Position numbers and translations under genes: made by a program. The notes below the pieces were generated by a model, which worked only from the letters and a program-made list of their open reading frames with translations, did no database searches and was not told the origin of the DNA. Positions 36,059 through 38,478 of a DNA stretch of 64,000 nt are shown in pieces. Each line of letters starts with the position of its first letter. Positions within the stretch are counted from its first letter, which is position 1. This stretch comes from Phlyctochytrium arcticum (lineage: Eukaryota > Chytridiomycota > Chytridiomycetes > Chytridiales > Chytridiaceae): assembly GCA_025602905.1 (NCBI GenBank), contig JAHLKI010000015.1, positions 248,001 through 312,000 on the forward strand, in the 5' to 3' direction.

Positions 36059-38068
36059 TCAGCAAAAGCAAACGGTGAGAAATCGCCTGAAGGTTACCGT
36101 ACGCCATGCAGAGTATTCAAGTAAAAGTAGGTATGGACGAGTAATGCAACTTCCCAGGTTGCGAGAGTCGGGTAGTGTTAGTGGCTTTAGTGCAGAGGAA
36201 GAAGAAAGCCGTAGTAGTGTGGAGATGCCTTCACGTGGCAATCCCAGCGAGTGTTGATGATCGACGTAGGGGGAATGGTCGCTTCCGTATCGTCTTTCGT
36301 ACCAGAACAGAAAAGATATGTTGCGGGCCGCGTTCGTGTCTCGGTTCCATGTCGTGAGGCATTTTGTGGCAATGGCGTACGGCATAGATCGCGGAAGGCG
36401 ATTCACGGCTCCCTTTGGGAACATACATTGCGTCGACATCCCTGTTGTGCTGTGTTTTAGTCGAAGAGTTGGGAATCCTTGCGACATGTGTTTCCGACGT
36501 ACCATTGTTTCTGGTCCTTGGTTGAATATCGTCTTCTTCTTCGAGGGGTTCTAATCCGAGCTGGTCATCTTCGTCCTGGTCATCGGCGGGATTAGGGTGT
36601 AGGATGTGAGGGGAGTGTTATTGAGAGCATGTACATGTGTAGGGGTGGTACCATCGTCCTCCCAACAATCTTGCACCCAACACCCGGAACAAGCCAACGA
36701 CGTATGATGTTCGTCCATGACCACCAAAGTGACATATTTGCGAAGATGTTTTTTGAATTTCTCTATGGGGGCACCTCGACTTCCTTTTCGACCACCAGAC
36801 TTTCCAAATTGGCCGTTGTCAAACGCAACGACAAACCTAGATTTGTCCCTTTTTAAATCGTCACCTTTCACCCGTCTCACAACTTCGCATAAGGCCTTTT
36901 GCGCTTGTCGGTATTTGAGGAAATTCCACCGATGCTCTTTGGAGTGGTATGTGGCCAGGAACTTCTCATGATGGAATGTTGTGTGGAGATGTCTGAGGTA
37001 GACGTTGAGGATCACTGTCTTTGGCGTGGTGATTCCGGACGTAACGGTTGAAACGGAGACGTCCGCCATATCCTCAGAAACTTTCTTCCTCCAAGTGTCT
37101 CGCCACTGATCCGTCAAGTGGTGTCCGGCCAAATGCAAACTTCTCGCGCCGGTAATAGGTCTGGCCAGTATTCTGATCGACCTTCTCCTCCAAATCTGAT
37201 AGCAACATAGATAATGGCTGACCCCCGCGTTCAATCAGGTACATGGCAACGTACACTTTTACGCGATGAAGCAGACCCTCAGCAGTGTTGGGGTTGCAAA
37301 AAATGGAACTCGAGATCATCTCGTTTTCCTTCATCGTGAAATTGTCCGCACTGCTTACGCCGGTATATCCTTTTTCTTGAAGGTTCTTAAAGCGGGCGTT
37401 CAGAATTTTATTGAACCCCCTGAACTCGATGTCGGAAAAAAGGTTGATGTCTTCACCTCTTTCTTCATAAAGAGTTTTGAAGTGTCAGCCCCCATCAGTT
37501 CCGGGTCCCAAAATGAATGTTCTCTAAGTATACGACACATAGTTTCAACAGATATCCAGTTTGTCTAGAGTGTATGAAGCATCAAAAATGTGGAGCGAAA
37601 CTTTCAGGTAATAAGCTTACCGGCCACATTGGCAAGTGGTCGTTCTCGGTCCTGACTAATGGCGGCAAACCCAGTCTTCGCGGTGGTATCCTTAAAATCT
37701 TTACCACACTCTTGCTTGACCTGATGCCAGAATTGCTGCAGGTAACCATCTAATTGATCCTTGCTAATCAGTTCATCGGTCGTCGTCACTCCTATATCTG
37801 ACTTGGAAAGTTTCCAATTGTTCAGCCAGGTTGAAGTACTGGTAGAAGTGTTGCCGTTGACGCTTGATTGCTTCATCACGTCAAGCTCTTCAGTGGATAC
37901 AATGTAATAATATTTGGGTTGAATGACGGCCGCCCTTTTGGGGTTTGCGGGAAGTCCCAAATACTCCTGGGTAAAACGATCTTGGTGATCTTTTTCTCTG
38001 TCAAATTCTTCAAAGGACTCAAAGCCAGAACTGTCGTCGAGTAGCTCATCGAGACCGTCCTGCTCTTG

Positions 38069-38099
<31 letters not shown>

Positions 38100-38478
38100 A
38101 GTGTCTTGGGGCCGCGAAGCCAGACGTAAGGGTAAGTTTGGTCGCTGGTGATCTTGCGGTTCAGACTGGTTTGAGATCGGGGCTCCTGACAAGCTGTGTA
38201 GAATTGGTAAGGTAAAAGTTTATTTCTGAATCCTAAACTACTACGGGGGACTCCGAATGCTCTCTATATGAGGATTTGTGGGGGGAATTGACAGGTGGGA
38301 CAGGTGGAGCGTCCAAAGAAGGGTCCAAGGGCCCGTGATTTACGGTAGTCCCGCGCCGCAGCACACTTGCACTTTTTGCTATGCGGGTAACCTTGATATT
38401 ACCCAGCTTCCATGTTGATTGCTTTATTTGATTCAAAATTTCACAATATGAGGCGTGCGTGCGAGAGCGTGCTATCAT
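36059..38478 (-). pseudogene. Fanzor-type (eukaryotic TnpB homologue) RNA-guided nuclease, frame-disrupted
   Basis: Exons read in phase: 38245..38478, 37621..38185, 37457..37521, then 37385 downward, with a 59-nt intron (36585-36643 region, GTACAT...GACCAG). Family features, N to C: a candidate RuvC-I strand IERGGQPLS (about 37215-37242), TGQTYYRREK plus HLAGHHLTDQW, RWNFLKYRQAQKALCEVV and RFVVAFDNGQFG, the DEHHTSLACSGC block (Glu plus first zinc pair, 36678-36718), RHCHK (second zinc pair begins) and WNRDTNAARNI (RuvC-III, about 36316-36349). Two frame breaks occur: at 37137-37139 (TTT; one extra base) and at 36362-36365 (AAAA on the minus strand; one extra base). The usual RuvC-I Asp appears to be Glu. 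Fanzors are guided DNA endonucleases carried by mobile elements. This copy looks decayed. No transposase is adjacent. Confidence 0.78.
38070..38094 (-). repeat. G/C homopolymer of 25 bp inside the Fanzor-like gene
   Basis: Twenty-five G on the plus strand (C on the coding strand) encode part of a run of eight prolines between KTLSS and QEQDGLDELL. At this length the upstream and downstream frames agree. A change of one or two bases would break translation. Confidence 0.9.

Follow-up and report, generated by a model that had tools for sequence, protein, structure and literature searches.

The Fanzor locus of Phlyctochytrium arcticum examined here is, with a probability of about 0.9, a dead chimera made of mobile-element debris, in which a 5'-truncated Fanzor1 gene adjoins the front part of a tyrosine-recombinase gene. 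A Fanzor1 copy represented by its C-terminal part alone is placed head-to-tail against the 5' part of the recombinase gene, and an LTR-like fragment adjoins the 3' end of the Fanzor piece; we propose that an illegitimate rearrangement, either a deletion or an insertion, joined the two genes at about 37137. The locus is flanked by an actin-family gene and a choline-kinase gene. All positions refer to the window, the whole stretch of 64,000 nucleotides that was analysed (C15:248001-312000 of a genome of 31.5 Mb in 91 contigs). The first-pass annotation had taken 36059-38478 for one decaying Fanzor gene of a chytrid; identity, host and decay are supported for 36213-37136, and the extent to 38478 is not, since 37137-37490 and 37652-37915 match a tyrosine recombinase.

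Identity and extent of the Fanzor piece

By its sequence, the minus strand at 36213..37136 is a fragment of a Fanzor1 (TnpB superfamily) gene from the C-terminal side. The blocks DEHHTSLACSGC, RHCHK, WNRDTNAARNI, RFVVAFDNGQFG and KYRQAQKALCEVV, on which the identification had first been based, are all present on this strand, and the resemblance is beyond chance, another locus in the genome matching at 64% identity (E 9e-71; reverse search E 4.9e-60). With the Fanzor-like frame of 227 amino acids (36551-37234) as query, the genome yielded 23 matches elsewhere at E ≤ 1, which form 18 loci when grouped by position, 16 of them at E ≤ 0.001. The nearest are L033-L036, with 54-75% protein identity piecewise and 71-75% DNA identity by blastn, and the edges of these blastn matches fall at 36213-36330 on one side and at 37131-37136 on the other. 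Apparently complete relatives exist elsewhere in the genome, where a search for intact copies had been suggested earlier. Among known proteins, the Fanzor-like frame matched five, of which two belong to P. arcticum.

Compared with 177,635 solved sequences, a profile built from nine sequences (L033, L034, L037, L038, L039, P0002, P0004, P0005 and the window frame) had the Spizellomyces punctatus Fanzor (8gkh, E 3.2e-05) as its sole match below E 0.001; five further rows had E near 1. Pfam on six single window frames gave sub-threshold matches only, the best being Cas12f1-like_TNB (E 0.0046). Homology to the RuvC/zinc-finger part of Fanzor is present, with the single frames lying below the PF07282 cut-off, and the window locus is absent from the 15 PF07282 matches in the genome at E ≤ 0.001 (13 of them over the cut-off) because its zinc-finger half alone is too broken.

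Catalytic residues and missing parts

The piece holds the part of the protein that follows RuvC-I, namely the Glu motif MDEHHTS, the zinc-finger halves and WNRD. The Glu codon of MDEHHTS (36710..36712, minus strand) aligns with DEYKTS of SpuFz1, the Glu of which we infer to be E541, and the Asp codon of WNRD (36338..36340, minus strand) would, by analogy to SpuFz1 D606, be the third catalytic position. The metals of SpuFz1 are coordinated by D383, E541 and D606, as given in PMC11423790; the window keeps counterparts of E541 and D606, not of D383. Between the MDEHHTS and WNRD codons lie a stop, an intron and frame-changing length differences.

All four kin Fanzor sequences examined have the DPG of RuvC-I, at a distance of 68-71 residues on the N-terminal side of the HLAG/HSAG block. 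Its stretch is SIDPGESDVISGY in L033, with variants in the other kin; the DPG was read in L033 and L034 and also lies inside the aligned frames of L035 and L036. The region that would carry this catalytic Asp (D383 in SpuFz1) is absent from the window, and recombinase sequence stands in its place. Farther toward the N-terminus, L034-L038 share a homologous region, open over 355, 394 and 478 amino acids in L035, L038 and L037, and these three open frames found no match in the window at E ≤ 0.001; the region was likewise without a match at E ≤ 0.001 in L033, L039 and L042. The window copy has no WED/REC N-terminal part. Both halves of the CCCC zinc finger are present, not in one frame, with one frame change between the last two cysteines. 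We infer by homology that the ancestor of the piece worked as an RNA-guided DNA nuclease with a RuvC Asp-Glu-Asp and a zinc finger. With RuvC-I, the N-terminal part and the zinc-finger reading frame lost, the window copy itself should have no nuclease activity.

A tyrosine-recombinase fragment upstream

The minus-strand segment 37137..37490 is a tyrosine-recombinase fragment with a conserved ERGG box (Arg codon 37227-37229) and 57% identity to L054, and 37652..37915 on the same strand, within the open frame 37604-38263, is an upstream part of the same recombinase gene (33% to L056, E 7e-14). Apart from its self-match, frame 37074-37484 gives five matches of 54-57% identity, distributed over four loci (L054 and L056 on C3, L055 on C4, L057/L058 on C2). 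The matches of frame 37604-38263 lie directly upstream of these at all four loci; it also matches 53 amino acids on C24 at 72% and, more weakly, places on C64 (E 1.1e-4) and C9 (E 0.1). L054 is a stop-to-stop frame of 476 amino acids. Its motifs are ERGG (position 241), HSFR (position 367) and GHRS..HYNK (Tyr at position 402), and it matches Phage_integrase at E 6.1e-09 (36.3 bits, cut-off 27.1).

The IERGG of the window aligns with VERGG of L054, and from this position we take the Arg of the box to be the catalytic Arg. The Glu that had been read as a replacement of the RuvC-I Asp thus belongs to the RGG box of the recombinase, RuvC-I itself being absent, and an active-site oddity that would have been surprising if real is removed. 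The C-terminal half of L056 found nothing in the window better than E 1.1, and the window recombinase is a front part only that has lost the HxxR/Tyr half.

The class of this recombinase is read from one Pfam domain (Phage_integrase) and motifs. Its assignment to Crypton over another tyrosine-recombinase class is tentative, the pointer to Crypton being a QRICH1 match at E 0.0022, below the cut-off. No relative of L054 occurs among the 8000 best-scored candidates from 5.8 billion proteins, and no solved structure matched the recombinase at E ≤ 1. Neither L054 nor L056 has a counterpart of the ~160 bp at 37490-37652, where the minus strand shows a short frame, TNWISVETMCRILREHSFWDPELMGAD, and may hold a GT-AG intron (around 37565-37620). 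A 25-base G-run (38070-38094, plus strand) falls in the open frame of the N-terminal part and reads there as a proline run.

The junction

The two similarities stop at the same place. Fanzor DNA similarity ends at 37131-37136 in all four near kin, and recombinase similarity ends at about 37137 (query residue 116) in three of five matches, the other two ending at residues 98 and 53. The extra base that had been suspected near 37137-37139 is therefore no frameshift within a gene; it is the junction of two unrelated genes, which cuts both domains mid-fold and out of frame. The arrangement was seen at this locus only: the four other recombinase loci have no Fanzor of this subfamily within ~1.5 kb on each side at E ≤ 0.001, none of the 20 Fanzor loci L033-L052 shows the window-type recombinase at E ≤ 0.001, and L059 on C24, a closer recombinase relative (about 127 bp of similarity, 89.8%), gave chance-level Fanzor matches only when it was tested for recurrence of the chimera. 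Reading such loci frame by frame can mix two mobile-gene families.

We also considered that the fusion is the element itself, a Fanzor whose 3' end is fixed and whose 5' end can be exchanged, with the front of a recombinase captured there, as in MCi-2A of Mucor. The MCi-2 copies share their 3' Fanzor region and differ in their 5' regions, according to PMC3627910; L033, L034 and L036 are likewise similar at the 3' end and dissimilar in 5' extent, and at L051 a Crypton-F gene (NDC10_II, GCR1_C) lies directly upstream of another Fanzor. Against this, the junction is mid-fold in both domains and out of frame, no second pairing turned up among the recombinase and Fanzor loci compared above, and all six other tested loci of the L051 Fanzor group are without a Crypton-F match at E ≤ 0.5, so that we regard this explanation as improbable. 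A wider version gets equally little credit from us: as fungal Fanzor elements spread, their 3' end would be fixed and their 5' end free, as could happen if RNA-guided cutting led to copying that starts on the 3' side and stops short. They would repeatedly acquire foreign sequence at the 5' end, half a tyrosine recombinase being one case, and the window locus and Mucor MCi-2A would be two independent products.

Intron, frame breaks and decay

The splicing over several exons that had been proposed is backed by kin at one intron, a GT-AG intron of 61 bp (36442..36502, minus strand) that separates the acidic linker from the second zinc-finger half and has the same place in the three aligned kin L033, L034 and L036; L037 and L038 are without an intron there. 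Alignment to these three kin, with L035 left out, revealed five length differences not divisible by three that separate the window from all of them, at about 36628, 36597, 36527, 36365 and 36286. The one at 36365 is the A-run 36362..36365 (minus strand), which has one base more than its counterpart in each of the three kin and breaks the frame between the zinc-finger cysteines, as the first-pass annotation had recognized; the other four (~36628, 36597, 36527 and 36286) had been overlooked, as had the LTR-like fragment. Those at about 36628, 36597 and 36527 lie in or beside the poorly aligned acidic linker.

The locus appears to have a public gene model, P0001 (DFS34DRAFT_144564, 296 amino acids, 'hypothetical protein'), which reaches 25.0 bits against Cas12f1-like_TNB, just below the cut-off of 26.3. 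This model starts inside the Fanzor block and loses the homologous frame from the last intron to the A-run. The differences at about 36628 and 36597 fall inside an intron, 36576-36634, that P0001 apparently uses, and may therefore be spliced out.

The block 36635-37138 (168 codons) is free of stops in the Fanzor frame, and no frame change there is shared by all three comparisons; inside it L034 differs by one base and L036 by five, which were assigned to those copies. Since P0001 starts inside this open block, a transcript or protein is possible. The dN/dS of the window is 0.166 against L033 (157 codons) and 0.178 against L034 (162 codons; 0.259 and 0.139 for the two frames apart), and that of L033 against L034 is 0.180-0.181, all rough values given a dS of 0.79-1.14. 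A ratio near 0.17 suggests that decay came late, after long selection; because the L033/L034 ratio equals that of the window, it may reflect ancestral selection only. Against reading the locus as dead debris stand the 168 stopless codons, which look less decayed than expected of an old relic, the start of P0001 inside them, and the position of two of the five length differences within the apparent P0001 intron.

The open block could also be under selection as a domesticated, nuclease-dead nucleic-acid-binding protein, for which the open frame, the dN/dS of 0.17-0.18 and the predicted gene model speak. We consider this very unlikely, because the ratio between L033 and L034 is equally 0.18, the zinc finger and tail are frame-broken, and P0001 is itself out of the homologous frame over the stretch given above. 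There is just as little reason to favor a gene that is intact in the organism and broken by assembly errors: one break does lie in a short A-run, and the 25-base G-run marks difficult sequence nearby, but homopolymer errors do not produce the length differences of 22 bp and 7 bp, and base-calling cannot account for the missing RuvC-I and N-terminal part. As a weak control against assembly errors, the neighboring genes each have two frames that match adjoining profile stretches (Actin 34-102 and 95-388; Choline_kinase 2-73 and 74-172). Least credible of all is one Fanzor gene that would extend over 36059-38478, broken at two single bases and carrying Glu in place of the RuvC-I Asp. The order and strand of the frames, a Gly-rich motif before the conserved block and the confirmed A-run break would fit it, but the frames farther upstream have their matches in a separate recombinase family and in no Fanzor locus of the 20 (E ≤ 0.01), and RuvC-I of the kin is the DPG 68-71 residues upstream of the block.

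Repeats and the 3' end

An LTR-like repeat fragment of ~105 bp (36104..36209, no strand assigned) lies at the 3' end of the Fanzor piece and has at least 38 other matches. Four pairs of these are on the same strand and 6.69-6.76 kb apart, as for retrotransposon LTRs, which suggests the LTR class for the repeat. The segment 36001..36082 (minus strand) occurs otherwise only in the 3' flank of the Fanzor copy L036 (88%) and would be either an element end or a common flank.

L033, L034 and L036 have a common 3' end and different 5' extents; they end alike at CATTACT, where the window has CACTACT. In the genome the 3' motif GGGATTGNCACGTGA is matched exactly at four places, the window, L033, L034 and L036; with one mismatch allowed there are four more, and a reversed control pattern likewise gives four. 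The RNA folding of 3' stretches from four copies, examined for a guide RNA from the element end, was not better than that of shuffles (z -1.15 to 0.65). The terminal repeats that had been suggested around the locus did not emerge: repeats of at least 14 bp comprised two direct and three inverted pairs of 15-17 bp, which we take as chance. Separately, a ~239-bp sequence is common to L034:2365-2603 and L036:4219-4452 (97%, inverted), where it adjoins the 5' edge of the similarity of one Fanzor copy and interrupts the 3' end of the other; it is probably an LTR, because it lies beside gag/pol-like frames in L034.

Other Fanzors of the genome and comparison with known systems

The P. arcticum genome is a useful Fanzor collection, with 18 other related loci, some apparently complete. 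Six repeat copies (L040, L041, L043, L044, L045 and L046, on C44, C6, C1, C48, C17 and C27) extend over at least 4.4-4.8 kb and contain a Fanzor frame, which is 724 amino acids long in three, 674 and 609 in two others and split in one. Five of them are 99.2-99.7% identical to one another and L045 is about 95% identical, and the L040 frame matches SpuFz1 at E 8e-129. This near-identical SpuFz1-like family looks recently active. At L051:260-3799, a Fanzor C-terminal half with the RuvC-I motif WGVDPG directly follows, on the same strand, a Crypton-F gene (NDC10_II E 1.6e-39, GCR1_C E 8e-9). Linkage of Crypton-F and Fanzor as a family trait was dropped, as none of the six other loci of the group has a Crypton-F match at E ≤ 0.5. 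A genome search with PF16787 (NDC10_II) gave at least 132 matches at E ≤ 0.01, and the genome is rich in Crypton-F-like sequence.

Fanzors in chytrids, and Fanzors beside Cryptons, are already known. Bao and Jurka (2013, PMC3627910) described Fanzor1 from Spizellomyces and, in Mucor, a Fanzor element that carries a Crypton transposase truncated at its C-terminus. PMC10711439 names Crypton recombinases among the partners of Fanzor1 and describes the displaced RuvC Glu, and the functional study of SpuFz1 is PMC10432273. The open-licence literature held no paper on Fanzor in Phlyctochytrium; P. arcticum Fanzors may be reported in subscription papers.

Like the window piece, SpuFz1 (8gkh), from a related fungus, has the KT...L block, DE-x-x-TS with the displaced catalytic Glu and the Asp after the split zinc finger. 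In contrast to SpuFz1, the window copy is without WED/REC and RuvC-I and is frame-broken, and the profile match between the two is distant (E 3.2e-05). The loci L033-L036 belong to the same subfamily as the window copy, and L033, L034 and L036 share its intron and 3' end, whereas L033-L036 keep the RuvC-I DPG, and L034-L036 the N-terminal region, where the window has recombinase. With the Crypton-like recombinases L054-L057 the window shares the N-terminal region and the ERGG box, without the HxxR/Tyr half. PMC3627910 describes MCi-2A as three presumably complete copies with target-site duplications, in contrast to the single decayed locus seen here; in that account, MCi-2A resembles the window locus in having a C-terminally truncated Crypton transposase 5' in a Fanzor1 element.
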